A program made the translations under genes and the position numbers. A stretch of DNA of 37,820 bases from Magnetococcales bacterium DCbin2 (GTDB lineage Bacteria > Pseudomonadota > Magnetococcia > Magnetococcales > UBA8363), in contig PEAO01000017.1 of assembly GCA_002753615.1 (NCBI GenBank), forward strand, positions 1 through 37,820. The letters run 5' to 3'. The number at the start of each line of letters is the position of its first letter. Position 1 is the first letter of the stretch. Below the pieces are notes generated by a model. It saw only the letters and a program-made list of their open reading frames with translations, was not told where the DNA came from and did no database searches. This document shows positions 13,514-37,820 of this stretch, piece after piece.

Positions 13514-13875
13514 CCCGCATTGATCAATGGCTCTGGGCGGCCCGTTTTTTCAAAACCAGGGGTTTGGCTTCCGATGCGGTTGCGGGGGGGTTGGTGCATG
13601 TGAACGCGATGCGGGTGAAACCGGCCAAGACGGTCAAACTGGGAGATATTTTGCAGATACAGAGGGATCAGCAGTTCATGGTGGTCGTGATACGGGCGTT
13701 ACCTTGTCGCCGGGGACCGGCCAAGGAGGCGGTGCTGCTCTACGAGGAGACCCCGGAAAGTGTGGAGGAACGACAACGGATTCAGTCTCTTCCCACGGCG
13801 ACCATGATTCCGGTTTTGGGAGGACGGCCCACAAAAAAGAATCGGCGTACTTTGGACAAAATTCGGGAGTATTGA
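13501..13875 (+). CDS. hslR: Hsp15-like S4 domain RNA-binding protein
   Basis: The 124-residue protein begins with an S4 RNA-binding domain ([40 protein letters not shown]) followed by a basic tail with [17 protein letters not shown], the layout of Hsp15. Hsp15 binds 50S subunits carrying nascent chains after premature release and helps recycle them. The ATG at 13501 lies within the end of the chemoreceptor gene. The stop codon (13873-13875) falls inside the AT-rich left edge of palindromic element A, so the original C terminus may have been altered by that insertion. Confidence 0.88.
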
Positions 13876-14124
13876 ATAAAATAAATTAAATTATTAAAAG
13901 AAAAAAGGGGTCTGGGGGATTGCCCCCAGGGTTTTGACTTTGTTTTTGACTTTAAACAAAAAGGTTTCCATGCTCCGTTTTTGAATTTGTTTTTGACTTT
14001 ATTTAAATCCAAAAGCAAATTCAAAAACGGGAAAGGGAGCTTTTTTTTAAAGTCAAAACCCTGGGGGGCAACCCCCAGACCCCTTTTTTCTTTTGATAAT
14101 TTTATTGAATATCAACACACCCTA
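13871..14124. repeat. Palindromic MITE-like element A
   Basis: Left arm 13900-13936 (GGGGTCTGGGGG, ATTG, CCCCCAGGGTTTTGA) and right arm 14051-14090 are inverted copies; each arm alone also forms a CTGGGGG/CCCCCAG hairpin. The 110-bp centre is built of repeated TTTTGACTTTG/TTTTGAATTTG units and their complements. The right end closes with a terminal repeat reading inward TAGGGTGTGTTGATATTCAA; the matching left terminus is eroded or lost at the hslR stop. Confidence 0.8.
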
Positions 14125-14130
14125 ACGTAG

Positions 14131-14412
14131 TCAATGTGACGGGAACAGTTTGAGAATGGCGATGATGAACATGGCTTGGCCTGTTGCCACGCCAAACATC
14201 CATTTGATGGTCTCGGCCTTGGATTCGGCGATTTTGGCTTCAAGTTTGAGTTCAAGTTGCCGAATATCGCCCTTGGTAGCCAAGTCGGCAAGTTGAGTTT
14301 CCTGAGCTTCCTTGATGGTATCGGAAAGGGCTTCGGCCTGCAACTCATCAAAGCCTGCCGCCTTCAAACGTTTGATGGCGGTGTAGGTATCAAACGTTAT
14401 TGTCGTCACCAC
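14131..14412 (-). CDS. DUF1640/CCDC90-type coiled-coil membrane protein
   Basis: The 93-residue protein has the family start TITFDTYTAIKRLKAAGFDELQAEAL, a coiled coil (KEAQETQLADLATKGDIRQLELKLEAKIAESKAETIKW) and a C-terminal transmembrane helix (WMFGVATGQAMFIIAILKLF). This layout is shared with many small bacterial relatives of the mitochondrial MCUR1/CCDC90 proteins, whose bacterial role is unknown. The start is GTG at 14412 (or the next GTG), 5-8 bp after AGGAG. The gene is bracketed by a full palindromic element and by a half copy in the same orientation, so it may have been moved or captured with them. Confidence 0.85.
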   Translation of the reverse strand: MVTTITFDTYTAIKRLKAAGFDELQAEALSDTIKEAQETQLADLATKGDIRQLELKLEAKIAESKAETIKWMFGVATGQAMFIIAILKLFPSH

Positions 14413-14486
14413 TGTTCTCCTTCTCCACGAGACCGCAACCGGGATAACCGTACCACGAGACTTTCCCAAACAACAGATAAAATTCG

Positions 14487-14540
14487 GTCAGGGCAATTCC
14501 CCAGGCCCCTTTTTTCTTTTGATAATTTTATTGAATACCA
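14487..14540. repeat. Half copy of the palindromic element (right arm only)
   Basis: A degenerate arm (CAGGGCAATTCCCCAGG) leads into CCCCTTTTTTC and TTTTGATAATTTTATTGAATA. The 32 bp at 14506-14537 are identical to 14080-14111 in element A and in the same orientation, forming a direct repeat 426 bp apart around the DUF1640 gene. The outer terminal repeat is missing. Confidence 0.7.
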
Positions 14541-14600
14541 ATGCCCCCTCATGCCACCAAGAAAATAATCATTTTCCCAACACCCTGAATTCACATATCT

Positions 14601-15467
14601 TTACAAGCCCGACATCAACTCCAAGGCGCGTACTACAGCACCGATATCATCGCGTCCCCACCCCTGCGCCATGGCACTGTTAAAGCTTTCCCGCACCGCA
14701 CTGGTTGCCGGAAGAACTGTTCCCTGGCGACCCGCCTCATCCAGGATTAGGTTAAGATCCTTGAAGACCAGATCCAAGGGAAAATGGGGGGAAAAATCGC
14801 GCGCCAAGATGCTTTCCCCCTTCATTTTGAGCAAGGGGGCTGCCATCACACCCGATTGGATGACCTGCATCACCGCTTCCCCCTTAAGGCCAAGCTTTTG
14901 GGCAAATACGAGAGTTTCCGATAAACCATGAACCATGTTGGCCAACATCAGATTGATGGCTAGTTTCATTCGGGTTCCATCCCCCACAGCACCACAGTGC
15001 CAAATAACTTTGCCCATGGTTGTCATCAGAGGTCGGCACCGTTCCAAGACCTCAATATCACCACCCACCAGGAAAACCAATTGTCCCGTCTGTGCGGGAA
15101 TTTTAGAGCCGGAAACCGGTGCATCGAGGAACATTCCTCCCGCTTCGGTCACAGCCCGCGCCGCGTCCAGAGTGGTGTCTACGGCGACGGTGCTGGCGTT
15201 GATGATCACGCGACCGGAGAGATTTTTTTGAACAAGGGTGTGGATGATCTCCTTCAACGCCTCAGGGCCGGTGACCATGATGACAAGGGCTTGGGAATCT
15301 GCCAACAAATCGGCAGGATTTTGGGTAACCGGAATGTGATCCTCAGCAAAAGGATAACATTTTTCGGGGTTGCGATTGCAGACGCGGATGGTAAAACCAC
15401 CCTTGCGGGCGTTCCAGGCCATAGCTTGCCCCATGATCCCCAGGCCAATAAAACCAATTGTGTTCAT
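14601..15467 (-). CDS. NAD(P)-dependent beta-hydroxyacid dehydrogenase (3-hydroxyisobutyrate dehydrogenase / glyoxylate-succinic semialdehyde reductase family)
   Basis: The 288-residue enzyme has the N-terminal Rossmann motif IGFIGLGIMGQAMA (GLGIMG at 9-13), the substrate loop LDAPVSGSKIPAQTGQLVFL (about 114-133) and the catalytic lysine K168 in GTRMKLAINLML, followed by the all-helical C-terminal domain. These are diagnostic of the beta-hydroxyacid dehydrogenase family. The SGSK form of the substrate loop is closer to glyoxylate/succinic semialdehyde reductases than to 3-hydroxyisobutyrate dehydrogenases, but the substrate is not settled. N31/R32 after the second strand suggest NADPH use. 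ATG at 15467 is chosen over an upstream start at 15512 because the dinucleotide fold begins immediately. It is alone on its strand. Confidence 0.88.
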   Translation of the reverse strand: MNTIGFIGLGIMGQAMAWNARKGGFTIRVCNRNPEKCYPFAEDHIPVTQNPADLLADSQALVIMVTGPEALKEIIHTLVQKNLSGRVIINASTVAVDTTLDAARAVTEAGGMFLDAPVSGSKIPAQTGQLVFLVGGDIEVLERCRPLMTTMGKVIWHCGAVGDGTRMKLAINLMLANMVHGLSETLVFAQKLGLKGEAVMQVIQSGVMAAPLLKMKGESILARDFSPHFPLDLVFKDLNLILDEAGRQGTVLPATSAVRESFNSAMAQGWGRDDIGAVVRALELMSGL

Positions 15468-16691: not shown

Positions 16692-18013
16692 CGTGGGCGC
16701 TGCGGCAAGGGGAGAAGAATGGTAATGGTCGTCCCCGCCGTTTGTGAACTGGACATTGTAATGGAACCTTTCAGCGTTTCGGCAATGAGTTTGGCTGAGA
16801 ATGTCCCCAGGCCGGTGCCATATTTTTTTCCGTGGGTGATGAATTTTTGGAAAAAAGTCTCTTTGATTTGCGGCGCAACAGGTTGGGCATTATTGATCTG
16901 AATGCACGCATGGGATAACGTTGATGACAATGCTACCGTAATTGCCATACCGGCTTGCGATGCCTCGACGGCATTTTTAATCAGATTGGCCATCATGGAA
17001 TAGGCCAGCAATTCCTCGCCGAGAAATAGGAAACGGTCTCTTTTTTCCACAGGGCGACCATTGAGGGTGATGTTAACAATAATCTTCATTTTATTAATTT
17101 GCTGCGCAAGTTCTCTGAAAATATTGTTGATTACGGGAATCAAATCGATCATTTCCGCATTGAGTTGATAGGTTCCCTGTTCCATCTGGAACAGGTAGAG
17201 GGACAGGTTGATCATGTGCAGGGAGCGATAGCCACTGTTCAGTATGATCTCCAGGCCCTTACGCAGATCATCGTCCAAATCTTGACGTTCAAGAAGCATG
17301 TCGGCAAAACTGATGATGCCGGTCAGAGGGGTTTTCAAATCGTGCCGGGAGATATGTTCTACCGCAGCCCGCAAGCGATCCGCCGCCAACAATTCTTCGT
17401 TTTGCTTGGCAATCTGACGGGCATCTTCTTCCGCCTTGGAGGCCGCTTCCTTCAATCGAAGTTCCTGATCGAAGCGGATGATGGCACTGGTGAGGGTGCT
17501 GGAGATGGCGCGAAGGAAGGTGAATTCCTGTTCGTTGAAATGATGATTGGGCAACGGATAAAGGTTCAACACTCCCCAAATTTGTTCTTCCGTACCCAGC
17601 GGAATACAACAATCCCGGTGTTCACCCAGGGCTTGCTGTGGAATGACATGTTGTGCATTAAGACCATCGGTCACAATCATTTGGCGCGAAAGGGCTGCCT
17701 GACCACAATGACATTGACCCAGGCGGATGGTGTGACACAGTGCCAAATGTTCTGGAGTCAAGTTGACGTGGGCCGCCAGTTTCAGATGTTGATCTTGCTC
17801 ATGCCATAAGAAAATAGCCCCCATGTTTCGGATAGGCAACCAGGGGGTCGCTGTCAGGACGTAGATGACTTCATCGAGGTATTCCGCCAAAGTCAGCGGT
17901 TCCAGAGATAGTTGCAGCAACCGGATGATGATCACGTTGGCCTGTTGCACTGTAATCGTGCCGTCTGAAATACCACCGTCGTGGTCCGGTAAGTGTGCAT
18001 TTGGCGTTACCAT
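16682..18013 (-). CDS. GAF domain sensor histidine kinase
   Basis: The 443-residue cytosolic kinase has a GAF domain (about 45-183) with a cysteine set C93, C101, C103 and C135-C136, a HisKA domain with H224 in EHISRHDLKTPLTGI, and HATPase_c with the N box ANLIKNAVEAS (about 343) and G2 box KYGTGLGTFSAKLIAE (about 397). The cysteines and the HCGQAA loop resemble GAF domains in oxygen-, redox- or light-responsive kinases, but no ligand can be named. There is no receiver and no nearby cognate regulator. The frame runs open to 18193, but the ATG at 18013 has GAGG 6 bp upstream and the extension covers decayed repeat DNA. Confidence 0.87.
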   Translation of the reverse strand: MVTPNAHLPDHDGGISDGTITVQQANVIIIRLLQLSLEPLTLAEYLDEVIYVLTATPWLPIRNMGAIFLWHEQDQHLKLAAHVNLTPEHLALCHTIRLGQCHCGQAALSRQMIVTDGLNAQHVIPQQALGEHRDCCIPLGTEEQIWGVLNLYPLPNHHFNEQEFTFLRAISSTLTSAIIRFDQELRLKEAASKAEEDARQIAKQNEELLAADRLRAAVEHISRHDLKTPLTGIISFADMLLERQDLDDDLRKGLEIILNSGYRSLHMINLSLYLFQMEQGTYQLNAEMIDLIPVINNIFRELAQQINKMKIIVNITLNGRPVEKRDRFLFLGEELLAYSMMANLIKNAVEASQAGMAITVALSSTLSHACIQINNAQPVAPQIKETFFQKFITHGKKYGTGLGTFSAKLIAETLKGSITMSSSQTAGTTITILLPLPQRPRQE

Positions 18014-18140
18014 GTTGTGCCTCAAACCTCTGTTATTATTGTAGCGGCCCAGATTGATCCTTGTTTGGAGTTGTTTAACTCCATTAATAATAATTAAAAT
18101 AAAATATTCTGGGAATTTTTTCTCAAGGTGCTTTTTCAAA

Positions 18141-18205
18141 ATTAGTAAAGATCTCCGTACTCCGCTTGCGACCTTTGTTTTTGGTTTTAACAAAGAGATT
18201 CTTTT
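18141..18205. repeat. Decayed palindromic-element remnant
   Basis: The run AAAGATCTCCGTACTCCGC, then TTGCGACCTTTGTTTTTGG and TTTTAACAAAGAGATT resembles the centre of elements A and E (AAAGATTTCCATGCTCCGC, TTTTGACC, TTTGTTTTTGACTTT). No arms remain. The 264-bp gap 18014-18277 between the kinase and the acetyltransferase gene otherwise shows nothing I can name. Confidence 0.4.
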
Positions 18206-18277
18206 TCTCCAAACATGAGCTGTGGCTCGCCCGAGATGAGAACTTAAGCCAGAGGATCGATTCGGTGTGGTTGAAAC

Positions 18278-19096
18278 TTAGCTCGCCGCCGATGGGAATG
18301 TATTATGGGATGTTGGACACCTAGTGCCAATTCCTTGCATCCCATCCGATGATAAAAGTCCATAGGGGTTCGCTTGAAGAAAATCCCGTGTCAATTGATC
18401 TAGAAGGGACAAATTTAACAATCTTGATGGACGGTTATGTACATATACGGTCGGGAACATGGAACCTATGGAGTTCTCAATTTTTTTAAAACAATTTTTA
18501 TCTATGTTTGGTTTCCGAGCATAATACGGACATTCCAACGTTTGAACGCCACCTTCAAAACATACCTGGCGTTTCAAAGTTATCCACTCGCGATATGGTA
18601 CCCCGACCATGGCTTCCATATGATGGATATAAGTGGCTCCTTCGTCAAAATTGGTGCCAAGAAAGAGTAGATGGAAACCTCTATTCGCCATCCATTCAAA
18701 GGAACTTCCATGTCCAATGGAGAAGGCAGGGTTTACTTGGCCAATGAGTTCTTGAACAAGTGGTCCAAGACCAACATGGCTGTGTATGGGACAATGTGTA
18801 CGTACCGAATCAGGCAGGCTATGGATGTAAGCTGGTAATGAACCTGTTGAAGGAAATGGTGTATGCCTTCGGTTGAAAATATCATTTTCCCGAATGTCGA
18901 ATGTATAAGTTGGAAATAGGACGGTTCCGTTTGGTTGGATCTTGTCCAGAAGGCAGTTGGTAACCATACCAGCTCCACCCTCAATGTACCCAAAGGAGGC
19001 AAGGCGGCTGTGGACAATAACGTTCATGTTTTGGGTGAGGCCCAATTCATTAAGCAATGCGTCAAGGTCTTTGTAAGCGAATCGGGGAATGGGCAT
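18278..19096 (-). CDS. AAC(3)-family N-acetyltransferase
   Basis: The 272-residue protein has the antibiotic N-acetyltransferase fold pattern (PF02522): VIVHSRLASFGYIEGG near residue 27, FPTYTFD near 61, THCPIHSHVGLGP near 101 and HMEAMVGVPYR near 159. Members transfer an acetyl group from acetyl-CoA to an amino group. Some give gentamicin-class resistance, while many chromosomal relatives sit in polysaccharide or secondary-metabolite clusters. Here the neighbours (ACP, AMP ligase, DUF4910 protein) suggest acetylation of an amino sugar or aminoacyl group instead of drug resistance; this is inference. ATG at 19096 with an AGGA about 10 bp upstream. The base composition is visibly more AT-rich than the housekeeping genes around it. 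Confidence 0.88.
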   Translation of the reverse strand: MPIPRFAYKDLDALLNELGLTQNMNVIVHSRLASFGYIEGGAGMVTNCLLDKIQPNGTVLFPTYTFDIRENDIFNRRHTPFPSTGSLPAYIHSLPDSVRTHCPIHSHVGLGPLVQELIGQVNPAFSIGHGSSFEWMANRGFHLLFLGTNFDEGATYIHHMEAMVGVPYREWITLKRQVCFEGGVQTLECPYYARKPNIDKNCFKKIENSIGSMFPTVYVHNRPSRLLNLSLLDQLTRDFLQANPYGLLSSDGMQGIGTRCPTSHNTFPSAAS

Positions 19097-19361
19097 TCTC
19101 GCATGTCCTGCTCGTTAGATTATTAGCCTAAGAAGATAATATTAAGTGTTTATATCCGATCCATAGGTAACCGTTCAATCCCCCCTTTGAGGATATAGTT
19201 TTGACCCTCATTTTATACCACAGATTGCTGGTCGAGGCCATAAAATTATTGAAAGAATAAGGGGCTAATGGGTACCTGTTCAGATTCGTAAGCACCGAAC
19301 GAACCCCGTTTTCAAGGCGACTGGTTTTTTTCCAAATTTTTTTGAACGTTCCAGAGGAGAA

Positions 19362-19571
19362 GGCCTGAAAATCATCAACCGTGACTGCGTTTGGGACATC
19401 GCTGAAGACTTTTCGGAGGTAGGCGTAGGGTTTCAGACCGGAGGCTTTGGCAGTTTCGATGAGACTGTAGAGATTGGCTGATGCCTTGTTCGGCACTAAC
19501 CCAAAGCTACCACTGTCGAGGATGGCAAAGCCCTTATTCTCCGAAATGTCCAAAAAATGGGAAAAAAACAA
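19362..19571 (-). pseudogene. IS66-family transposase C-terminal remnant
   Basis: About 70 residues match the C-terminal domain of IS66 transposases: SGSFGLVPNKASANLYSL, then IETAKASGLKPYAYLRKVF and the Leu/Pro-rich continuation SDVPNAVTVDDFQAF. The catalytic DDE part is absent and the frame then runs into unrelated sequence ending at 19128. This shows that an insertion sequence once landed here and has decayed. Confidence 0.8.
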
Positions 19572-19657
19572 GAGGTCTTGAGAGCGGGGTTCCTTCGGCG
19601 CTTACGCAGCATGGACCCGCTGCCGCATTATCAAAAACTAGTCGAGCATCGCGTGTA

Positions 19658-20287
19658 TTATGTTTTTGGAAAGGGGGATGTAGGAGTCTGAATGTGCCGC
19701 AGGTCTCGGGTAAGCAAATAAATTTCTTGTCCTTTCTGGTCCTGATGCACGAAACCATGGCGGCGATAAAATGCCAAGGCGGCCAAGTTGTTGGCGTACA
19801 CATGCAAACTTAAATATTTCCAATCCGTCGCCGCTGAACTAAAATGGTTTAATAGTTGATCTGCCAGCCCTTGCCCCCGCCATAGTTTTCCGACAGCAAT
19901 ACGTGAAAGATAATAACTGCCTGCTGGTGCCTGGGAAAAATGGTGCCAAGAATGGCCCATCTTTTCATGAAGGGTCTTACGCTGTTCTGGGGTCAGTGTC
20001 TTCTGTAACGCTAACATGCTAAAAATTTGCCGGATTTTTGACTCTTCAGCCGGATAGGCGGTATAGACTCCTATGACCAACGCACCGTGTACCAGGGCGT
20101 AACCGTGTTCTAATTCATTGTTTTTTTTACACAATTGATCGGCAATACTGGAAAATAGAGTCAGCGTGGATATCCCAAACTGCTGGTAAAATTCCGGCAA
20201 TGATGCATAAATCAGTTGAGCTGCTTCAAGGCGCTGTTGCCGATCCAGGAGTGCAATGGGGGTTAATTCTGCCATGATAGGTTTCAT
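19658..20287 (-). CDS. GNAT family N-acetyltransferase
   Basis: The C-terminal half shows the GNAT core: motif A LSRIAVGKLWRGQGLADQLL with the acetyl-CoA pyrophosphate loop R-G-Q-G-L-A, and motif B YANNLAALAFYRRHGFV. The first 100 residues are helical and not recognised. The start is uncertain: the ATG at 20287 gives 209 residues with a weak site (GGAA), while a TTG at 20362 has a better GAGGTG and would give 234 residues. The substrate is unknown; GNAT enzymes acetylate small amines, proteins or sugars. It lies between the IS66 remnant and palindromic element B. Confidence 0.8.
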   Translation of the reverse strand: MKPIMAELTPIALLDRQQRLEAAQLIYASLPEFYQQFGISTLTLFSSIADQLCKKNNELEHGYALVHGALVIGVYTAYPAEESKIRQIFSMLALQKTLTPEQRKTLHEKMGHSWHHFSQAPAGSYYLSRIAVGKLWRGQGLADQLLNHFSSAATDWKYLSLHVYANNLAALAFYRRHGFVHQDQKGQEIYLLTRDLRHIQTPTSPFPKT

Positions 20288-20434
20288 CACTAGTTCCGTA
20301 TTCAAAGGAGGATATCCAGGCCCCGACCACGCTAATAATTCGGAGAAAGTCGCTGTTGCCAACCGGGTAACACCTCTTCTCCTTGATTGTACATGACAAC
20401 ATCATGCGAACTCCAGTGTGGGAACTACTTGCCT

Positions 20435-20464
20435 CAGGGCAATTGCATTTGGAATCCCTTGACA
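20435..20464 (+). repeat. 30-bp dispersed repeat, copy 2
   Basis: CAGGGCAATTGCATTTGG followed by AATCCCTTGACA. It directly abuts the TAGG terminus of element B, exactly as copy 3 abuts element F at 37745. Confidence 0.8.
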
Positions 20465-20926
20465 TTAGGACGTATTAATGTTCGATAGCTTGAGATACAC
20501 CCTAGAAAATTATTAAAAGAAAAAAGGGGTCTGGGGGATTGCCCCCAGGGTTTTGATTTTGTTTTTGATTTTCATGCGCCCCTTATCCCGAAGCATTTTT
20601 TTCGCGCTTTTTGTTCTTGCGAAAAAAATGCGCAGGGCGCACGCCTTCGCTTGATGTTTTTCGCGCCTTTTGCGAAAAATATCAAGCATAATGCACTGTT
20701 TTTACACCTTCAACATTGCACTGTGTTTGCCATATTTGCGCCAAAACCGCGAAAAAAGGCAAACCAAGGCGCGCGCCTGCGCATTTTTCCCTTTAAAAGA
20801 AAAGGCACGGGAAAAATGCTTCGGGATAAGGGGCGCGTGGAAAAGCAAAGTCAAAAACAAAGTCAAAACCCTGGGGGCAATCCCCCAGACCCCTTTTTTC
20901 TGTTAATAATTTATTCTTTCCGAGGC
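20465..20926. repeat. Palindromic element B with nested hairpins
   Basis: The left arm (20519-20560) and right arm (20846-20900) match the family. Inside lies a second long inverted repeat: ATGCGCCCCTTATCCCGAAG near 20574 pairs with CTTCGGGATAAGGGGCGCGT near 20819. Within that are smaller hairpins: GCATTTTTTTCGC/GCGAAAAAAATGC (20593-20632), CTTGATGTTTTTCGC/GCGAAAAATATCAAG (about 20650-20687) and GCATTTTTCCC/GGGAAAAATGC (20781-20819). The right terminal repeat is lost near 20926. Together with the neighbouring 30-bp copy it fills the 580-bp gap 20363-20943, which has no gene. Confidence 0.8.
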
Positions 20927-20943
20927 ATTTGGACGTGCCAATT

Positions 20944-21216
20944 TCAAATGCGATTGCCCTGCCACTTGCCTACTTTGCAATGAAAGGATCTAATCCCATT
21001 TGGTATTAATATTTTGAATATACGTTCGGGATCAAAATCATAATAACGAAAGAAAGATTCACGACTCAAACTTTCGTGGGTGTTGATATCAGGATATCCG
21101 TGTTGAACGGCAGTAACAACACGTCTAGTATCTGCCGAGCTGGTCCAAATCTCCGATAATAAGCCACATTGAGCGATGGTCTCGGCGATTTGGGCAGCTG
21201 GGCTACCATCGCCCAC
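20944..21216 (-). CDS. Truncated gene of unknown function, in frame with the ACP gene
   Basis: About 90 residues are readable. The start resembles a Rossmann-type nucleotide-binding strand and loop (ILVGDGSPAAQIAETIAQCG), slightly like the opening of formyltransferase-type or NeuD/PglD-type domains, but I cannot assign it. There is no clear ribosome site at the GTG (21216). The frame is continuous with the upstream ACP gene apart from its TAG stop at 21238-21240, so this could have been the next domain of a fused protein or a translationally coupled gene. The 3' end runs into element B (right edge about 20926), which probably cut it off. Likely non-functional. Confidence 0.4.
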   Translation of the reverse strand: MGDGSPAAQIAETIAQCGLLSEIWTSSADTRRVVTAVQHGYPDINTHESLSRESFFRYYDFDPERIFKILIPNGIRSFHCKVGKWQGNRI

Positions 21217-21237
21217 TAAAATGAATGTACCATGCGA

Positions 21238-21486
21238 CTAAGACGTGTGCTTCTTGAGGGCGGCAACAAGACCACCAAAGGTGGTGATATCCGCAGCCAC
21301 ACTGAGAGCTTCAAAATCGATTACAAGCCCAGTCTTTGTCTCGAACTCTTGTAACAGGTTGATCCAACCAAAGGAATCCATTATACCACTAATCAATAAA
21401 TCTGTATTATCATTCAATTTTTCTTTGTCATTACGGTCCAAAATCGACTCAAGAATCTGTAATAGTACCATTCGATGGTCAATCAT
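21238..21486 (-). CDS. Acyl/peptidyl carrier protein
   Basis: The 82-residue helical protein has the carrier-protein site LLISGIMDSFGWINLLQEFE, with Ser38 after Asp37 as the 4'-phosphopantetheine attachment point. Helices before and after fit the four-helix PCP/ACP fold. The ATG overlaps the stop of the AMP ligase gene by 4 bp (ATGA), so the two are coupled and the ligase is the probable loader. This is a DltA-DltC-like or stand-alone NRPS-like pair. It is too divergent to be the fatty-acid AcpP and no FAS genes lie near it. Confidence 0.88.
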   Translation of the reverse strand: MIDHRMVLLQILESILDRNDKEKLNDNTDLLISGIMDSFGWINLLQEFETKTGLVIDFEALSVAADITTFGGLVAALKKHTS

Positions 21487-22967
21487 AACGATCCAAGACT
21501 CCGCGCAATTTGGTTGATGGCCTGTACATCAATTTTATCAGATGAGGTTCGTGGTAAGGGGACCAGGGCTTGGAAATAAGTTGGTATGGCGTATAGGGGA
21601 AGAATTTCTCGGAGTTTTAAGATAAGGGACGAAACATTCAAAAGGGATGGCTCTACTTCAATGTAGCTCATAAGGCGTTCGCGAACAAATACCGTTACCG
21701 AAGGACAACGTAAAACGCTCCGTAGAGCCGCATCGATCTCATCCAATTCCAATCGATACCCATGAATCTTTACTTGCCTATCGGTTCGAGCCTGGAAATA
21801 CAGATCATTCCCAAACATTTTGCCCCAATCTCCAGTCCAATAAGCTGGCTGAGAAGTACCGTTTGGAAACAGGATATCGCGAAAAACAAGTTCCGATCTG
21901 GCAGGGTCACGCCAATATCCAGTAGCCAGTTGCGGACCCGTCAAAACAATTTCTCCCTCAATGGTATTTAACTGACCATCTTTAACGAGCCAAAGTCCCA
22001 TTCCAGGGATGGCATGTCCCAAGGAGACGGTTCTGTCTGCAACGTGATTACGCCAATTATCTTTCCTCAACGCTAACAAAGTCATGGATACTGTGGCTTC
22101 GGTCGGTCCGTATGTCTGATGAACGACCAGATCTGGATGGGCATTGAATATCGACTCAAGATGATGGGGGAAAAGAGGCTCGCCACAAAAACTCATAAGT
22201 CGTAACGATGTGAGATATTCGTGGCTGACTTGTCTCGTGGCTGACATCTGGTCCACAACGGATGGGACGCTGTTCCAAATTGTAAGACGGTGTTTTTTGA
22301 TGAATCCAGATGGCATCAACCTGTCAGTGTTCTGTGTCACTGGATATAAGGTGGCACCATAACAGAGAGACCCAAAGATATCCATCACGGAAAGATCGAA
22401 TCCTATGGACGGGTGTTGAGACCAACGATCCATATGAGTCGGGGCGACAAATTCTCCAATCCAAGCGACATAATGATCAAGTGCGTTACGACTAATCTCA
22501 ACTCCCTTGGGATCGCCCGTTGATCCAGAGGTAAAGATAACATAGGCCGACTTCTTCCACGAAGGAACGTCCGGTAACTCTTCAGAAGAGGTTGGCTCGG
22601 TTTCTGGAGACTCTATGAGATGTTTCTGGGAGCCAATCTTCAGACATTCCGCCCCGCCGATCACGATATCTGGGGAAAAAAGCTCTAAAATACTTTGGCG
22701 TTTTGCCGTAGGCAGACCAAGATTGACAGGACAGTAAACAGCACCCGCAAGGAGGGCACCAAACATAGCGGCGTAGGCATACGCCGATTGTTCCAAGTGG
22801 ATCAGCACCCGAGTCTGTCGGTCCTGTAGTTGTGGGATACTCGCAGCGATCCGAAAAGCCAAACTTCGAAGTGAAGAGTAGTCAGTACTCCTGGTTCCAG
22901 ATTCAACGACCGCCAAGTGTTCTGGAATCAAATCAGCGATGGAAAGAAACTTCTTGATCGTTAACAA
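21483..22967 (-). CDS. AMP-forming amino acid/acyl adenylation enzyme (NRPS A-domain/DltA-like)
   Basis: The 494-residue enzyme carries the adenylation motifs in order: GALLAGAVYCPVN (about 70), the P-loop YVIFTSGSTGDPKGVE (about 142), GFDLSVMDIFGSL, the YGPTEATVS motif (about 288), YWTGDWGKM (about 370), DRQVKIHGYRLELDEID (about 396) and the catalytic lysine in SSDKIDVQA near the end. It activates a carboxylate, probably an amino acid, as its AMP ester and loads it onto the downstream carrier protein. The substrate code cannot be read safely by eye. The start is a TTG at 22967, supported by GGAGGG 5 bp upstream. A promoter lies about 200 bp upstream. Confidence 0.92.
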   Translation of the reverse strand: MLTIKKFLSIADLIPEHLAVVESGTRSTDYSSLRSLAFRIAASIPQLQDRQTRVLIHLEQSAYAYAAMFGALLAGAVYCPVNLGLPTAKRQSILELFSPDIVIGGAECLKIGSQKHLIESPETEPTSSEELPDVPSWKKSAYVIFTSGSTGDPKGVEISRNALDHYVAWIGEFVAPTHMDRWSQHPSIGFDLSVMDIFGSLCYGATLYPVTQNTDRLMPSGFIKKHRLTIWNSVPSVVDQMSATRQVSHEYLTSLRLMSFCGEPLFPHHLESIFNAHPDLVVHQTYGPTEATVSMTLLALRKDNWRNHVADRTVSLGHAIPGMGLWLVKDGQLNTIEGEIVLTGPQLATGYWRDPARSELVFRDILFPNGTSQPAYWTGDWGKMFGNDLYFQARTDRQVKIHGYRLELDEIDAALRSVLRCPSVTVFVRERLMSYIEVEPSLLNVSSLILKLREILPLYAIPTYFQALVPLPRTSSDKIDVQAINQIARSLGSL

Positions 22968-23344
22968 GCCAACCCTCCAGAAGAATGACCTTTTCGTTAT
23001 TGGAAACGACTCCCTCCGAAGTCAAACGTCGTTTTCCCACGTAGAGAAAAAATTCGGCGAATAACGGAGAGAAATTTCTTCTATCCTACACACAGCCACC
23101 AAACCCCACAGCAAGAAAACTGTGGACCACCCTAAACTTGGGACGCCTCAACCAGCGATCCCCGAACTAAGTATACCATAGTTGAAGATTAATTGCAAGT
23201 TGATCAAAATTTGTTTGTACCCATTTTCTGCTCTTTGGTGAGCAGAATCCCATATTAGTTGACCTTCGATGGCGTTGCAAAACTGTAAAATCACGCATGA
23301 GAAACAATGTGTCAAACAAACCAAATTCAATGATGACCGTTTCT
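22968..23344. other. Gene-free leader and intergenic region upstream of the AMP ligase
   Basis: No gene is seen in these 377 bp. It holds a good minus-strand promoter (23170-23198), a 200-nt leader with a CCACAG/CTGTGG hairpin (23106-23125), and an 8-bp hairpin TTCTGCTC/GAGCAGAA (23226-23247) after the DUF4910 stop. No T tract follows the latter, so termination there is doubtful. Confidence 0.5.
23170..23198 (-). promoter_or_regulatory. Sigma-70 promoter for the AMP ligase-ACP genes
   Basis: On the minus strand TTGCAA (23193-23198) and TATACT (23170-23175) are spaced by 17 bp, close to consensus. Transcription would start near 23163, leaving a leader of nearly 200 nt before the TTG start codon. 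Confidence 0.6.
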
Positions 23345-24631
23345 CTACTCCAACAATTTTTTTAGAACCAGTACATCTACGATTTTTAAAAGATCCCACA
23401 TTGGAACTTGCAAACGTTGGGATAATTCCAACAAATCCATCTTCCCGTCGGACAGGGCCAGCAAATTGGAGATATGGCGGAAATACACTCCAAGAGTTTT
23501 CACGCCGCCGACATCCGGTCGGAGACCTCTTGAACCTAAAAATGGTTCGCAAGTGATGGAATTCCGATAAACCCGATTCCCTTCCAGGCAGACGATACAA
23601 AGGCGCAGGGCATCATAGCCCCCAAACAGACCCTCAGGAGAGATCACTGTCAAGTCATCCCTCGACGTATGATACTCAGGAAATTCGCCAAATCGGGTCC
23701 TCATCAACAAAGCAACGGGAAGGTTGACTTTGGGGCTGCAAAATTGCCGCTCATCGCTTCCGCGATGCTCCTGGAAATTGCGCACCAAATAATTGGGATC
23801 AATTTGACCGAGAACATGTTGAATGACGCGATCAACAAGAGTATCCCCTTGTCTGGATGATAAATAGGTATAATTCCGATTGTCGCCAACGCACGTAACG
23901 ACAAATCCGGCAATGACGTTTCTTTGGAGATGGTCCAAGTTTCGGCTTAAATAAAGAATCGCTCCGATTGTCTCCGGGATGAAAATAATACGATATGTAT
24001 ATCTCCTGGAGGTTAGCCCCGTAAGCCATTTTCCCAAAAATGTCGTAACAGATGGACCCGATATTTCATTATTTCCCATGGAAGGATGGCATATATAGGT
24101 CGAAAGAAGTATTTCCTGGTCGGTTTCCCCAGGTAATATTAATTCACCAAAAGTCATATGTCCCGGCTCCAGCGTACTCTCAATAACAACCTGATAGTCT
24201 CCCTCCTTCAGTGTATTACGCTGCTTGTCAGACAAACAAAAACCCCACCGTTCAACATAATAGGATGTTCTGTATGGAATGGCTTCTGGATCATCCGGCA
24301 AAGAATATAGATGCTCCTGCAATGCCTCAAGACCCATTTTTTCCCGGATAGGAACGGAATAGGACATGACATGAAGGTTGTTTTCTTTAAAATCTATAAT
24401 TTTTTTACCATCGGGATCTATGACATAAGCATCGGAGATGTTCCACTCCTTGGGAACGATCCAGTCAAAACACGGCGTACCCGTTGGAACTTCGATAATG
24501 TTAAGTTCGGGAATGATCCGCTTGATGATATTAAGAGTGTGACGTACACCGTTTCCCGTAATGCTGCGGCATATGGGAAATAATTCCTTAGCCAGTTCAT
24601 AGATCTCTGTTCCAATAGCGTTTTCATTCAT
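23345..24631 (-). CDS. DUF4910/COG4310 aminopeptidase-like protein of polysaccharide biosynthesis clusters
   Basis: The 428-residue protein starts with IYELAKELFPICRSITGNGVR, the usual opening of this family, has an inserted beta domain, and shows zinc-peptidase-like motifs: STYICHPSMGNNEISGPSV (about 192), FIPETIGA (about 228), EHRGSDERQFCSP (about 305) and FGEFPEYHTSRDDL (about 330). A C-terminal winged-helix region (DLLELSQRLQVPMWDLLKIVDVL) follows. Relatives carry an M28-like metallopeptidase fold and are found in O-antigen and flagellin-glycan clusters, with unknown reaction. ATG at 24631 with AGGTG upstream. Element C begins only 17 bp upstream of the start, so its original promoter has probably been displaced. 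Confidence 0.88.
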   Translation of the reverse strand: MNENAIGTEIYELAKELFPICRSITGNGVRHTLNIIKRIIPELNIIEVPTGTPCFDWIVPKEWNISDAYVIDPDGKKIIDFKENNLHVMSYSVPIREKMGLEALQEHLYSLPDDPEAIPYRTSYYVERWGFCLSDKQRNTLKEGDYQVVIESTLEPGHMTFGELILPGETDQEILLSTYICHPSMGNNEISGPSVTTFLGKWLTGLTSRRYTYRIIFIPETIGAILYLSRNLDHLQRNVIAGFVVTCVGDNRNYTYLSSRQGDTLVDRVIQHVLGQIDPNYLVRNFQEHRGSDERQFCSPKVNLPVALLMRTRFGEFPEYHTSRDDLTVISPEGLFGGYDALRLCIVCLEGNRVYRNSITCEPFLGSRGLRPDVGGVKTLGVYFRHISNLLALSDGKMDLLELSQRLQVPMWDLLKIVDVLVLKKLLE

Positions 24632-24647
24632 ACCTGAACACCTAAAC

Positions 24648-24964
24648 TAGGGCGTGTTGACATTAAATAAAATTATTAAAATAAAAAATGGGTCTGGGGG
24701 ATTGCCCCCAGGGTTTTGATTTTGTTTCTGAATTTAAACAAAAAGGTTTCCATGCTTAAGCTTTTGACCTTGCTTTTGAATTTAAACAAAAATATTTCCA
24801 AATTTAGGCTTTTGATTTAAAGTCAAAAACAAATTCAAAAGCAAGAAATTGAAGCTTTTGATTTAAAGTCAAAACCCTGGGGAAAGAATTCCCCAGCCCC
24901 CTTCTTTCTTTTCAATAGTTCTTAGGAGGGGTGTCAATAAATTATTGAATGTCAACACGTCCTA
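24648..24964. repeat. Palindromic MITE-like element C with intact terminal repeats
   Basis: The ends are inverted: TAGGGCGTGTTGACATTAAA at 24648 and, reading inward from 24964, TAGGACGTGTTGACATTCAA. TA bounds both ends, as for a TA target duplication. The left arm (24680-24720) has the CTGGGGG/CCCCCAG hairpin; the right arm has diverged to CCCTGGGGAAAGAATTCCCCAG. The interior repeats TTTTGAATTTAAACAAA-type units in both orientations. It fills the gap 24632-25011, which holds no gene. Confidence 0.85.
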
Positions 24965-25011
24965 TTTTCCATTGTATGAGACGCACATCCAGTCTAATGT
25001 TCCCCTTCCAT

Positions 25012-28000
25012 TCAGTCAACCGAGAAGTCGCCGGTTTTTTTGTTCCCATTCCACCAATTGCCATGGGCAGGATGAAAAGACCGTGGTGGACGTTTTCCAC
25101 CTTTCCCAATGAATGTCAAATAAATCAATGGCATAAGAAATAGCGTCAGCAAGGTTGAAAAGGAGAGTCCCCAAACGATGGCGGTGGCGACCGGACCCCA
25201 CAGGAGTGAAGATCCTCCCATCCCGACGGCCAGGGAGAAAAGCCCGGCTACGGTGGTGAAGGAGGTAACCAGGATGGGGACAAGACGCCGACGGGCAGCA
25301 AAAAACATGGCATGGAGGGGCGTCATCCCCTGTTTGCGGCGATCATTGGCCGCTGAGATGAGAACAATGGAGGCGTTGACGGCAATCCCAACCAAAGCGA
25401 CGACCCCATAGAGACTGTAAAGACTCAAAGGGTGTCCCGCAAGAAACAATCCGAGGACGACTCCGGTAAAGGCCATGGGGACAGTCAGGAGAATCATGAA
25501 GGGCTGAAAATAGCTGCCAAACTGGGTGCCTAAAATCATATACATCATCCCAATGCCAAACAAAAACAAGACCGCAATGGCATCCAACGCTTCGGTGATA
25601 TCGTCCAAGATTCCCGAAAAATCAAGATCAATCCCTGGGAAATCCTGATGAATCTTTTCCCATTCCTCCTTTAATTGGGCATTGGCCTCCACGGTATCCA
25701 TTTTCTTTTTATCCAGGTCCGCTTCCACCGTAATGGAACGGCGAAAATTATAATGGCGAATCGCCTCCGGCCCTCGTTGTGATTGATGATGGACAAGATC
25801 CCGTAAGCGAATCGCCTGGCCATCACCGACGGTGAGCAAGGTATCAAGCACCTGGGCGATTTCGGCACCCTTTCCATAATCTGGCAAAACTCTGACTTCT
25901 GTTTTTTCTCCCTGATGCTGGAAATGTGCAGAAATTTCTCCGTTGCCAAGTAGCTGCACCAGTCTGGGAAGATTGGCCGGGGAAAATCCAGCCCGGTGCA
26001 TCGCCGCATCATCGGCTGTCAGCGAAAGTTCAACGCTCCCTTCCACATAATCGTCCGTGATATCACTGGCAGCGGGCATGGATTTTAAAATCCCCTTGAC
26101 CGCTTGCGCTGCACGTTGAATCTGTTCCAAATCATCGCCACGCACTTTCACACTGACCGGACGTGTGATGGGCGGTCCCCCCGACAAGGTGAAAAACGAA
26201 ACACTTTCCGGCCCCCCAATTTTTTCAGTCACCGGGCGCATGGCATCGATGATGACGGAGATTTCTCTGCGCTTGCTGCGCTCCGGGGTCAGACTGACCA
26301 TGATTTGCCCAAAACGGTCACCAAAAAAAGGTTTGGTATCGGTCATCATCTGCCCGGCATAGGCCACCGTGGTTTGAATTTCGTTGCGTTCTACAACCTT
26401 GAGTGCTTCCAATTCGATGGCGCGTACCGTTTCCATCGTCCGTGCCAAAGGGGTTCCCGTAGGCATTTTAATGTTGATGTAAAACAATGGCATGGGATCG
26501 GCGGCAAAAAAATCGGTCCTGACCATACCGGATGCGACGATCCCCACAGCCAACACCATGGGCAAAATCGCAAATATAAAAGATAGTTTCGGATACCTCA
26601 GAACCTTGATCAAGGTTCGTGCATAAATCGTTCTTAATCCTGTCAACATCCGTTTTCGCCACCGCTCCATGTGCCCCATGGTATTGCTCTTGAGTCTCAT
26701 GGCGACGATATGGGCAGGCAACATCCAAAAAGCCTCCACCAAACTGATGAACAAGGCGGAGGTCACCACCAAGGGAATCACCCGCATAAACTTCCCCAAG
26801 ATGCCCGGCAGCAACATGAGCGGTAAAAAGGCGGCTACCGTCGTAAGGACCGATGTGGTCACCGGAACAGCGATCTCCTTGAGGGCGGCGATGCTCGCCT
26901 CAAGGGCGGAGTAACCCTTTTCCACATAATCATGAATCGATTCCACCACCACCACGGCATCATCCACCAACATCCCCAGGGCGATGACGACACCCAAAAG
27001 GACCATAACGTTCAAAGAGTGACCCAAACTGTATAACAGGGCAAAAAGACCCGCCAACGCAAAAGGGATACCCAAACTCAACAAGATGGCAATGCGCCAA
27101 CCAAAAAAAAGCCAAACGGTGACCAGGACCAGAAACAATCCCAGTATGGCGTTGCTTTCCATGACACTCAGGGCTTGACGAACCGTGTGGGTTTGATCGT
27201 CGGCCAACAGGGGGGTGACCCCGGTTTTATCTGACAATGTTCGTTGCTGTGCCAGATAGTCCCGAATTTCATCGGTCAGGTCCAGAGAGTTGATACCGGG
27301 GCGTTTGGTCACCGTCAGCAAAATCGACGGTTGACCCTGAAACTGGACGATATCCTTGGCTTTTTGGCGGTCGCGCACCACATCGGCCACCTGCCCCAGG
27401 GATAGCTCACCCCCTGGGATTGGAATCCTCATGGCCGCAATTTTTTCTGGATCGGCGGTTGCCCCTTCCATCCGAAATAACCAGTTGCCCCAGCCATGGA
27501 CGATGGCCCCCCCAGAGATATCCTTGAGGCGTGACCCTGCCAGATCGGCCAACTGAGTCGGAAGCAATCCAAACTGTTGGAGTTTTTCAGGATGAAACCG
27601 GATCTGGAGTTCGGGATCGCGTAACCCCAAGGCAAAAACGGTGTCCACCCCCGTGATCCGTTCCAAATCGCGTTTGATACGACGCCCGTTTTGTCGCAAA
27701 TTTTCATCATCCGCCTGACCTTGAACGGCAACCATCACCGTTGGCCAACCGTTGGCACTGGTAATCTCAAGAATTACCGGATCGATCACATCTTCTGGTA
27801 ACTCAGGGAGTTTATTGGCAATTTCACGGCGAAGATCATTCACACGCCGATCAAAAGTATGATCATCCATATCCTCAAAGCGGACCAGAATGTCTGCGGA
27901 ACCTTCTTGACTGCTGGATATGGCAAAACGAACATCGGGAATCTTCTGGATGGCATCCTCCAAAGGATCGGTCACCATTTTTTCAACATCCGTCGCCGAC

Positions 28001-29769: not shown

Positions 29770-30035
29770 TAGGGCGCGTTGACGTTCGGTAGCCAATTGA
29801 CACCCTCCAGAAAATGATTGAAAGAAAAAAGGGGTCTGGGGGATTGCCCCCAGGGTTTTGACTTTGCTTTTGACTTTAAATAAAAAGCTTCATCCTTCGC
29901 TTTTGACCTTTTTCTGACTTTGCTTTTGAATTTAAACAACGTCATATAAGAAAGGTCAAAAACAAAGTCAAAAGCTTAAGCGTGGAAACCTTTTTGTTTA
30001 AAGTCAAAATCAAAACCCTGGGGGCAATCCCCCCC
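29770..30035. repeat. Palindromic MITE-like element D
   Basis: The left terminus TAGGGCGCGTTGACGTTCGG is followed by the family arm (29824-29862). The centre repeats TTTTGACTTTG/TTTGACTTTAAA units, with AAGCTTCATCCTTCGC and AAGCTTAAGCGTGG facing each other. The right arm (30012-30035) ends abruptly in CCCCCCCGTCTC, 14 bp before the ftsK stop, so the right terminal repeat is missing. It lies at the 3' end of the ftsK transcript and could act as its terminator. Confidence 0.8.
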
Positions 30036-30048
30036 GTCTCATCGGCGT

Positions 30049-33297: not shown

Positions 33298-33305
33298 GAC
33301 GAATC

Positions 33306-34982: not shown

Positions 34983-34985
34983 CCG

Positions 34986-35741: not shown

Positions 35742-36052
35742 GGCAGGGGGGATGAACCGGGCTTGTTGTCATGGGACTGGGGGGACGATTGGGGCTGATG
35801 AGCGACATCATCACCCACGGTACCCTCCGTTCGCGGTGAAACCGGACTGTCAGAGTGGGAGGGTGGTTTTGAGGAATGCCGCTGTTCAAATTCCTCAAGA
35901 TTGATGCTGTTACGGACATCGGCCACAATACGGCGTACCTGACGTAACGTTTTGGCAAGCGTTCTGGCAACCTCTGGAAGGTTTTCCGGCCCGATCACGA
36001 GCAAGGCGACGATGATGATTACAAAAATTTCTATCCATCCCAAACCCAGCAT
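35738..36052 (-). CDS. tatB: Sec-independent protein translocase TatB
   Basis: The 104-residue protein begins MLGLGWIEIFVIIIVALLVIGPENLPEVARTL in family fashion: a short N-terminal transmembrane helix, the hinge GPENLP (a GPERLP variant) and an amphipathic helix (VRRIVADVRNSINLEEFE). The tail is polar and rich in Ser, Pro and His. TatB partners TatC in the receptor complex. It follows tatA by about 30 bp. Confidence 0.94.
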   Translation of the reverse strand: MLGLGWIEIFVIIIVALLVIGPENLPEVARTLAKTLRQVRRIVADVRNSINLEEFEQRHSSKPPSHSDSPVSPRTEGTVGDDVAHQPQSSPQSHDNKPGSSPLP

Positions 36053-36082
36053 GGTTTAACTCCATCGCAAATAACAACCGTG

Positions 36083-36295
36083 TCAGGTATTTTCTTTCCT
36101 GGGGGTGGAATCATTATCCAAAGTTTTTGTTTGTGTAATACTATCAACCACTTCATCCTTCTCGACCATGGCATCTTTAAAGCTTTTAACCCCTTTCCCC
36201 AAATCTTTCATAACCTTGGGTAATTTCCCGGCACCAAAAACAACAAGGACGATTACCAGAATAATGATCAATTCCGAAGTGCCCAATCCGAACAT
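36083..36295 (-). CDS. tatA: Sec-independent protein translocase TatA
   Basis: The 70-residue protein has a short N-terminal helix ([20 protein letters not shown]) ending in the F-G-x-G-K-L-P hinge, an amphipathic helix ([16 protein letters not shown]) and a polar tail. TatA forms the pore-like assembly of the Tat system. The ATG at 36295 is preceded by AAGGAG at 10 bp; a TTG at 36304 is too close to that site. It is the first gene of the tatABC-rnj-ftsK run. Confidence 0.94.
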
Positions 36296-36381
36296 GTTCG
36301 TCAATCTCCTTGCACATTGGCACTACCTGTTGGCAGCATGGCACCGGTCAATCCGAACCCGGCAGGTTTGTAAACCGCACA

Positions 36382-36461
36382 AGATTACAATAATGCCGTT
36401 GGGGACGCAAACCCAGCGCGAATAAAAATGGAATTATAGGCGCATTTTTGCGGGATGAAGG
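36382..36461 (-). promoter_or_regulatory. Candidate promoters for the tat-rnj-ftsK operon
   Basis: Two minus-strand candidates lie upstream of tatA. A perfect TATAAT (36433-36438) has a poor -35 (CCTTCA at 36456-36461, 17-bp spacer). Nearer the gene, TTGCGT (36405-36410) and TAATCT (36382-36387) are spaced by 17 bp. Either or both could drive the operon. Confidence 0.4.
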
Positions 36462-36482
36462 AGATCATTGCCGTTTGCGACA

Positions 36483-36749
36483 TAACCGTTCAGACTTCCC
36501 CCTTAAAATTATTGAAAGAAAAAAGGGGTCTGGGGGATTGCCCCCAGGGTTTTGATTTTGTTTTTGAATTTAAATAAAAAGATTTCCATGCTCCGCTTTT
36601 GACCTTGTTTTTGACTTTGTTTAAATTCAAGAGCAAATTCAAAAGCGAAGAATGAAGCTTTTTGTCTAAAATCAAAACCCTGGGGAAAGAATTCCTAGAG
36701 ACCCCTTCTTTCTTTTCAATAGTTTTTTAGGAGGGGGTCTGAACGGTTA
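36483..36749. repeat. Palindromic MITE-like element E, different terminal repeats
   Basis: A perfect 13-bp terminal inverted repeat, TAACCGTTCAGAC, bounds the element, with TA at both outer edges. The left arm (36517-36556) is the family consensus and the right arm is the AAGAATTCC variant also seen in element C, as is the shared edge CTTCTTTCTTTTCAATAGTT. The interior keeps TTTTGAATTT, GATTTCCATGCTCCGC and their complements. It lies between the tatA promoter region and fpg, which face away from each other; no gene is interrupted. Confidence 0.85.
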
Positions 36750-36786
36750 CGTTACGCTTGCGACAGCTTTTTGACTGGGAGTGTGT

Positions 36787-37611
36787 ATGCCTGAACTGCC
36801 CGAAGTAGAGACCATTCGTCAAGGTTTATCCCACCGCTTGGTACAACACGTTTGCACGGGGGTTGTCATACGGCGCACCGATTTACGTTGGCCGATCCCG
36901 GAAAAAATGCTTGTTGAATCGCTTCCTGGCAATCGGATCGTCGCGGTTGGTCGGCGCGCCAAGTATTTGCTTCTTGAAACCTTGGCGGGGACAGTGATCT
37001 TTCATTTGGGGATGAGTGGGGTCTTGCGTGTCGTTCCCGCCGATTCTCAGGTACAGCAGCATGATCATGTGGATTTTCAACTGGATGATGGGCATTGTCT
37101 TCGTTTGACCGATCCCAGACGTTTCGGGGCGGTTTTATGGGGTGGTTTGAACCCTTTGGATCATCCGGCACTGGCCAAGCTTGGACCCGAACCGTTGGAA
37201 GAGACGTTTGATGGTTCCGTCCTCTACGCGATGATTCGTGGACGCAGAAGGGCCATCAAGACGTTGTTGATGGATGGTCGTGTGATCTCCGGCATTGGAA
37301 ATATCTATGCGGTGGAATCGTTATTCATGGCCCGCATCCATCCCGCTTGTCCTGGGGAAAGGTTGACGGTCCAGGAGTGTTACCGTTTGGTTGCCGCCAT
37401 CAAGGATCGCTTGGCTGCGGCCATTGCCCAGGGTGGTACAACCTTGCGTGATTTTCTCAACAGTGACGGTAAACCGGGATATTTTCAACAATCTTTGCAG
37501 ATGTATGGTAGAGATGGCCAGCCCTGCCAAGTCTGTTCCCACACCATTGCCTCTTTGCGCATGGGTGGTCGTTCCAGCCCTTTTTGTCCAACATGTCAGA
37601 CCGTACCCTAA
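36787..37611 (+). CDS. mutM: Formamidopyrimidine-DNA glycosylase (Fpg/MutM)
   Basis: The 274-residue enzyme removes 8-oxoguanine and FapyG from DNA and nicks the abasic site. After Met removal Pro1 is the nucleophile (PELPEVETIRQGL), so the ATG at 36787 must be the start, not the in-frame GTG at 36781; GGGAG lies 5 bp upstream. Further marks are the catalytic lysine in VGRRAKYLLLE (about 56), HLGMSGVLRV, the helix-two-turn-helix SGIGNIYAVESLF (about 165) and the C-terminal zinc finger with four cysteines (CQVCSHT and CPTCQ). Length is normal. It is monocistronic and downstream of element E. Confidence 0.96.
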   Translation: MPELPEVETIRQGLSHRLVQHVCTGVVIRRTDLRWPIPEKMLVESLPGNRIVAVGRRAKYLLLETLAGTVIFHLGMSGVLRVVPADSQVQQHDHVDFQLDDGHCLRLTDPRRFGAVLWGGLNPLDHPALAKLGPEPLEETFDGSVLYAMIRGRRRAIKTLLMDGRVISGIGNIYAVESLFMARIHPACPGERLTVQECYRLVAAIKDRLAAAIAQGGTTLRDFLNSDGKPGYFQQSLQMYGRDGQPCQVCSHTIASLRMGGRSSPFCPTCQTVP

Positions 37612-37713
37612 GAGGATTACTGGTTCAGGGATGGGTGCAATGTTATGATCTACCGTGAGTTATGATCACCAGTCTGACTTATCTATCGTAATCGATCAAA
37701 TGGTGGATGGCCC

Positions 37714-37744
37714 CAGGGCAATTGCATTTGGAATCCTTTGACAT
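37714..37744 (+). repeat. 30-bp dispersed repeat, copy 3
   Basis: CAGGGCAATTGCATTTGG followed by AATCCTTTGACAT, directly abutting element F. The gap 37612-37713 before it shows nothing I can name apart from two copies of GTTATGATC. Confidence 0.8.
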
Positions 37745-37820
37745 TAGGCCGTGTTGGTATCCGATAACTTGAGACACACCCTAGAAAATTATTAAAAGAA
37801 AAAAGGGGTCTGGGGGATTG
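37745..37820. repeat. Palindromic element F, left end only (cut by window edge)
   Basis: TAGGCCGTGTTGGTATCCG, an internal GAGACACACCCTAG and the family arm opening AAAAAAGGGGTCTGGGGG continue to the last base. It matches element B almost base for base from its terminus onward. The rest lies outside the window. Confidence 0.75.

Follow-up and report, generated by a model that had tools for sequence, protein, structure and literature searches.

The stretch of DNA analysed here (the window, 37,820 nucleotides) is one contig (C16; PEAO01000017.1) of the 3.36-Mb, 78% complete draft genome of Magnetococcales bacterium DCbin2 (G000), and carries between its genes six large palindromic elements, A to F, along with a half copy and two remnants. 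We read these as members of a modular, chimeric family of the type of miniature inverted-repeat transposable elements (MITEs), in which one terminator-like core is packaged in unrelated transposon ends and mobilised in trans, and give this reading a probability of roughly 77%. It rests on a core shared by copies whose ends differ, on target duplications with two of the three end types, on an empty site in a sister genome, and on partner elements of the IS5 and ISAs1 insertion sequence (IS) families that carry the same ends. From the outside inwards, an element comprises a shell of ~15-90 nt, the edge AAAATTATT(A/G)AAAG-AAAAAA, an arm and a centre, after which the order is reversed. Every arm forms a 7-bp hairpin (CTGGGGG-ATTG-CCCCCAG) with its T-tract facing outwards, and the two inverted arms of a core also pair with each other, the centre being mostly palindromic, so that element E folds into one 256-nt hairpin (-118 kcal/mol, z -10.5). 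Over 41 two-ended copies, the median z of whole-element folding was -13.9 relative to dinucleotide shuffles, a rough value resting on 12 shuffles per copy.

Element A (13876..14122; none of the elements A to E is assigned a strand) starts directly 3′ of the stop codon of the gene at 13501-13875(+) and has a type I centre between a left arm at 13907..13937 (+) and a right arm at 14053..14083 (-); its left shell is not recognised, and on the right an IS5-type end (14108-14122) is followed by TA. Element B (20435..20961), which is overlapped by a 110-aa open reading frame (ORF; 20651-20983) from a mechanical ORF list, has an ISAs1-type shell with an IS5-type end nested within it on the left, two arms (from 20526 on the + strand and at 20863-20893 on the - strand) around a type II centre, and a 10-bp repeat outside (CTACTTGCCT / CCACTTGCCT). 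Element C (24650..24962) has an IS5-type shell at both ends, TA at both sides (24648-24649, 24963-24964), a type I centre, arm A on the left (24689, +) and the second arm type, arm B, on the right. Element D (29772..30040) has an IS5-type left end and a left arm from 29831 (+), its right arm (30010-30040, -, 5 mismatches) being degenerate and its right shell not recognised. Element E (36482..36750) combines an IS66-like shell at both ends with arm A on the left (36525, +), arm B on the right and a type I centre, and is flanked by TTTGCGAC at the left and by TTGCGAC 7 nt past the right end. Element F (37714..37820, +), which the contig end cuts off, has an ISAs1-type left end with a nested IS5-type end and a left arm from 37805 (+). 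The half copy (14491..14534, -) is a single decayed arm plus its T-tract, and two strandless remnants comprise a stretch resembling a type I centre (18147..18193) and an IS66-like end, GTAACCGTTCA, with the core edge AAAATTATTGAAAGAATAAGGGG (19167..19266).

Much of this layout had been described in an earlier note on the same DNA. A mismatch search of the window found arms at the places it named, and its hairpins, its pairing of arms, its half copy and its remnant near 18147 all exist, as does the non-autonomous, MITE-like palindromic character that it proposed; the remnant at 19167 had been missed. As corrections to it, C and E carry a second arm type, GGGGTCTGGGGAATTCTTTCCCCAGGG, at the right; the centre of B consists mostly of another palindrome rather than of TTTTGACTTTG units; and TA bounds C as claimed, whereas in E the TA belongs to a GTAACC-type terminus (here ATAACC). 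In B and in the copy at the contig end, the ISAs1-type ends at 20435, 20961 and 37714 had been overlooked. A fuzzy hairpin pattern matched the window 18 times, against a mean of 4.7 and a maximum of 13 in 100 shuffles; the pattern is nearly palindromic and therefore counts every arm twice, once per strand, and two of the 18 matches are due to chance.

The arm GGGGTCTGGGGGATTGCCCCCAGGGTTTTGA occurs 260 times in G000 at up to 3 mismatches (reversed control: 0) and 12, 199, 60, 250, 15, 101 and 52 times in seven genomes of the same genus, while among 92 other relatives searched a single genome holds one stray arm with 3 mismatches. Among the matches listed, named records with exact arms are Magnetococcales metagenome bins, and the exact arm is absent from the viral contigs searched; the host group is one genus of the Magnetococcales, an order of magnetic cocci. 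The second arm type (GGGGTCTGGGGAATTCTTTCCCCAGGG, loop AATTCTTT), which substitutes for one arm in some copies, matched 14 times in G000, 20 times in the sister genome G004, the nearest relative, and 19 times in G007, and is absent from the other five genomes of the genus searched. Centres have a median length of 116 nt (5-95% range 59-326) and by motif are of type I in 84/102 elements and of the second palindromic type, that of element B, in 7. Some centres in DCbin4 hold a further nested palindrome similar to CCCCCACAGGGGGTTTGGGGGACGAAGTCCCCC (L088:4449-5032, L130:2170-2397, L133:1836-1995 and L101:4120-4274). A search of Rfam returned 19 matches at E-values up to 0.5, to long-hairpin families, and none at gathering score. 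Of 100 arm places listed in G000, 26 start no more than 300 bases from the beginning of a contig, and the end of the window falls within an arm. The repeat is probably what interrupted the G000 assembly, and the many contigs that end in an element may account for some of the fragmentation seen in these genomes.

Outside the core, G000 and G004 have three recognisable types of end, GGGCGTGTTGACATT, GTAACCGTTCAGAC and CAGGGCAATCGCATTTG, which lie outside 62/117 and 51/112 arms, compared with 1/117 and 1/112 in shuffled flanks. Other species hold variants of the GTAACCGTTCAGAC end (GTAACTATTCAGCACC and GTAACTGCCCAGGTACC) as well as an end, TTCTACTTTGTCACATTC, without assignment to an IS family. 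When 166 non-redundant arms from G000 and G004 were compared between recognised shell classes, identity was 0.97-1.0 in the arm (these were chosen at up to 4/31 mismatches, a selection that favours arm likeness), 0.93-0.96 at positions -11..0, 0.70-0.77 at -22..-11 and 0.19-0.29 beyond; likeness between shells thus stops 22 nt outside the arm. The exception is the pair of IS66-like and long IS5-type classes, which are 0.57 identical at -30..-22, a likeness suggesting descent of one of the two from the other.

We then typed both sides of 101 two-arm elements with at least 100 nt on each side (41 of them in G000 loci, 37 in G004 stretches and 23 in named loci, which leaves out single arms and copies at contig ends). 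The same end type stands on both sides, as terminal inverted repeats, in 33/101 (17 IS66-like, 9 IS5-type, 7 ISAs1-type), 40/101 have one end (27) or unlike ends (13), and 28 have none. In a survey of 102 elements under a looser flank rule, like ends were found in 32 of the 45 elements typed at both ends, where 16.5 were expected and the maximum of 10,000 shuffles was 29. IS66 typically has GTAA ends with an 8-bp duplication, ISAs1 has CAGGG ends, and a subgroup of IS5 has TA. Direct repeats around ISAs1-type copies match at a mean of 7.7/10 positions (permuted 3.4), with 5/7 copies matching at 8 or more, and those around IS66-like copies at 4.4/8 (permuted 2.4), with 6/17 matching at 7 or more, both means exceeding all 5,000 permutations. 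The 13 unlike-ended copies show no duplication (1.77/8, permuted 1.98), the outcome expected of arm recombination between copies; the class includes L092, L095 and L120, whose second end is of the unassigned type T3 and was scored as weakly matching the IS5 type, as well as L238:8821, where closer inspection shows IS66-like ends outermost on either side and an IS5-type end nested within. A palindrome of less than 60 bp, made of two IS5-type ends without a core, lies at L173:18156 (minus strand; GGACGTGTTGACATTC...GAATGTCAACACG).

Transposase-bearing elements with matching ends, which the earlier note had proposed to look for, were found for two of the shells. An intact 1,416-bp ISAs1 element in G004 (L300; NF033564, E 2.9e-121) has 22-bp ends identical to the ISAs1-type shell and is surrounded by a 10-bp duplication, ACTGGTTTTG. 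In the congener G005, an 846-bp IS5 element (L305) has the ends of the IS5-type shell, TA at both sides and a transposase that is broken, though recognisable when read through its stops (NF033580, E 1.8e-48), and single IS5-type ends, exact or with one mismatch, occur in the IS5 loci L303 and L304. The IS5 and ISAs1 assignments are based on these matches to transposases. For IS66 there is a remnant beside a variant end: at L290 (G004), the C-terminal part of an IS66 transposase (PF03050 at 46 bits, above cut-off; NF033517 at 2e-25, its 90 bits being below the cut-off of 180) is followed by an exact copy of GTAACTGCCCAGGTACC. No transposase-bearing element was found to carry the commoner GTAACCGTTCAGAC end, whose putative assignment to IS66 is partly shown, by its GTAAC start, its 8-bp duplication and its likeness to the variant end. 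The arm is absent from the ISAs1 element, the IS5 element and the IS66 remnant (at least 10 mismatches), so that the core is more than interior sequence left over from them. ISAs1 remnants are also present in G000, at L159:9034-9432 (an end plus a transposase start, DDE_Tnp_1_assoc) and at L168:9085 (an end alone), and in the window a lone ISAs1-type end without a core (10578..10600, +) just upstream of a chemotaxis-receptor-like gene is possibly an IS remnant as well.

In G000 and G004 together, 103 copies had enough flank for a comparison of the sister genomes, and for 26 of them a colinear site could be located in the other pool; the sister lacks the arm in 12 of the 26 and has it in 14, several sites being counted from both genomes. 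The clean case is an IS66-like insertion at L176:3516, with accgaaga on both sides, for which G004 (L234) has a single acctaaga, an empty site with an 8-bp duplication of the kind that the earlier note had suggested seeking; the other empty sites are less clean. Element E is absent from the orthologous G004 site, as is D, in whose place are ~63 other bases, and one "shared" site consists of separate IS66-like insertions in the two sisters, less than 20 bp apart. At L174, G000 retains an IS5-type shell without the core that is present at L228 (the same copy as L096). Edges like those of the IS66-like shell enclose 382 bp in G000 (L206:16996-17379), which matched nothing else among the sequences compared, and the core in G004 (L238:14115). 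L256 and L152 apparently share an IS5-type insertion target and have an IS5-type shell and arms around different centres. Together, these comparisons make shell, arm and centre look like exchangeable parts. A ~7-kb part of the window (18013-25105), including B and C, is missing in G004, where ~65 bases lie between the flanking matches.

As a mechanism, we propose that the core is enclosed by terminal inverted repeats that fall into at least three kinds (IS5-type, ISAs1-type and IS66-like) and that such a shelled unit would move in one piece, in trans, by a transposase that recognises its ends. Near-identical arms may then let shells be swapped, through recombination or template switching, and the core may be tolerated, or kept, because it would end transcription in both directions. 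After insertion, shells would erode while arms stay, leaving arm-only copies, and we propose such erosion as the source of the copies with one recognised shell or none. The nesting of IS5-type ends inside ISAs1-type or IS66-like ends suggests that the IS5-type shell is the older. More tentatively, at somewhat less than even odds, the core could be a "hitch-hiker of hitch-hikers", whose shells are repeatedly swapped via the arms so that several unrelated transposases disperse it in turn, the centre being exchanged likewise, as the differing centres of L256 and L152 would indicate.

The gene context bears on what the core might do. With a simple home-made gene caller (1,947 genes, 81% coding), only 2/146 copies fall within a called gene. 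Both neighbours were called for 96 copies; the genes on either side are convergent in 33, tandem in 57 and divergent in 6, while the 848 other gaps measuring 60 nt or more divide into 95, 566 and 187 (chi-square p 1.4e-10; orthologous sites of both genomes count twice, among copies and comparison gaps alike), which amounts to an enrichment between convergent genes (odds ratio 4.2) and a depletion between divergent ones (0.24). In tandem pairs, the stop of the upstream gene is nearer than the start of the downstream gene for 37/57 copies (p 0.004). G/C hairpins with T-tracts in both directions give a terminator-like signal on both arm strands, with a 5-nt ACCCC spacer between the small hairpin and the outer T-tract unless the long stem forms, and the scanned stretch has 34 terminator-like sites against 24.6 in shuffles. 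Context and structure thus fit a predicted bidirectional terminator, and all three observations (orientation, proximity to the upstream stop, signals on both strands) would be expected if the copies were mainly host-owned terminators kept by selection, with the transposon ends as incidental aids of past dispersal. We regard this as possible but rather doubtful as the main explanation: the arm is missing from the sister in 12 of the 26 comparisons, which implies fast turnover, and mere tolerance of insertion predicts the same bias. It is compatible with a core packaged in transposon ends, and the two are not exclusive.

Less probable is that the core is an independent mobile unit that enters existing MITEs, IS remnants and plain intergenic DNA. 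The 28 copies without a recognised shell and the shared shell that lacks the core in one sister (L228/L096 against L174) would suit such a unit, which we nevertheless consider unlikely, as L176/L234 shows a complete shelled unit inserted in one step, no duplication was found at the arm boundary, and no shell-less copy had a clean empty site in the 26 comparisons. On this last ground, shell-less copies were rejected as independent insertions; one of them, L168:4603, still has remnants of the IS5-type and IS66-like kinds, both truncated, at its right. The earlier note had weighed two readings of its own, one of them a repetitive extragenic palindromic (REP) repeat or bacterial interspersed mosaic element (BIME). 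Such a repeat, if copied by a REP-associated tyrosine transposase (RAYT, a Y1 transposase), with the arms as REPs and the shells as chance neighbours, would account for an extragenic, palindromic repeat of many copies with inverted pairs of short hairpins, and armless IS66-like and TTCTACTTTGTCACATTC-type ends do lie near a broken Y1_Tnp gene in G005 (L140:2632 and 2982). The role at transcript ends that the note considered is supported by the gene context, but the RAYT link is not: arms occur at 0/11 Y1_Tnp loci of the genus in the flanks scanned (some short at contig ends), and duplications lie outside the shells, so that we hold this origin very improbable. The other, a single TA-targeting MITE family with an IS630/Tc1-like transposase, agrees with the TA on both sides of element C and of 5/9 copies with IS5-type ends on both sides, yet these TA-flanked ends match the IS5 element of a congener, no PF13358 match was found in G000 or G004, and the IS66-like and ISAs1-type ends carry 8- and 10-bp duplications. 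With ends of three kinds and differing duplications (B being ISAs1-type with a 10-bp duplication and E IS66-like), the claim of one transposon family fails, the IS630/Tc1-like description of the whole is refuted by the other end types, and we give it almost no credence. At nine IS630-type loci of other congeners, scattered single end-like matches with 3-4 mismatches were seen, and no pair.

For the reading that we prefer, a shared core in unrelated, trans-mobilised transposon ends, several observations are unfavourable. Among the two-arm elements, no shell was recognised in 28/101, and in a further 27 a single side has one, and 11/17 IS66-like copies, element E included, lack a clear in-register duplication. 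TA on both sides of the IS5-type copies (5/9) is indistinguishable from shuffling (p 0.59), because nearly all flanks end in A. Ungapped identity outside -22 is low within shell classes also (0.26-0.59), because shells vary in length. The evidence assigning the commonest end to IS66 is indirect, and neither a full-length IS66 transposase nor a PF13586 IS5 transposase was found in G000 (78% complete, as noted) or G004, so that some shells may now be stranded. Support for shell erosion is weak: more of the ends could be typed where the sister lacks an arm (17/24 ends) than at shared sites (11/28; p 0.03), but this tally includes certain sites twice, once from each genome, and counts as "shared" one pair that represents separate insertions. 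Finally, the gene caller was a simple one, and the orientation bias would also arise from selection against insertion in promoters.

Small transposons are usually classed by their ends and taken as shrunken copies of one parent. Here several unrelated transposases appear to disperse one cargo, so that it is the cargo, and not the ends, that defines the family. The family provides a natural experiment on whether carrying a terminator lets the host tolerate an insertion, and on the way in which shells are swapped. MITEs, SPRITE and REP elements have been described before, and one interior within the ends of several IS families appears to be new: in the parts of the literature available to us we found no description of this family or of one core in several shells, an absence that does not amount to proof. 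To our knowledge, a classical MITE family has one terminal-repeat type. MITEs derived from IS5, IS66 and ISAs1 are likewise short, extragenic and of high copy number, with the terminal inverted repeats of a transposase-bearing element and target duplications; in contrast to them, one interior occurs here in several unrelated terminal-repeat types, and its arm is absent from the transposase-bearing elements and the IS66 remnant found, whereas some definitions of a MITE, though not all, demand an interior that comes from the parent. REPs and BIMEs are similarly palindromic, extragenic and arranged in inverted pairs, whereas here no Y1 locus with arms was found and duplications lie outside large shells. 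The SPRITE, BOX and RUP elements of Streptococcus pneumoniae are extragenic, with SPRITE terminator-like, and insert into one another as clustered but separate families (PMC10969869), unlike the single core enclosed by different shells described here. The same source reports for QMITE2 of Coxiella burnetii that copies without ends come to resemble REPs (PMC10969869), as may hold for copies that lose their ends here, although for QMITE2 one end type is described. Modules are likewise exchanged in the TIMEs, mosaic non-autonomous Tn3-type elements of which TIME and TIME-RES share an end type and differ in core (PMC4133298); there the ends are constant and the core varies, while in the Magnetococcales elements the core is constant and the ends vary.

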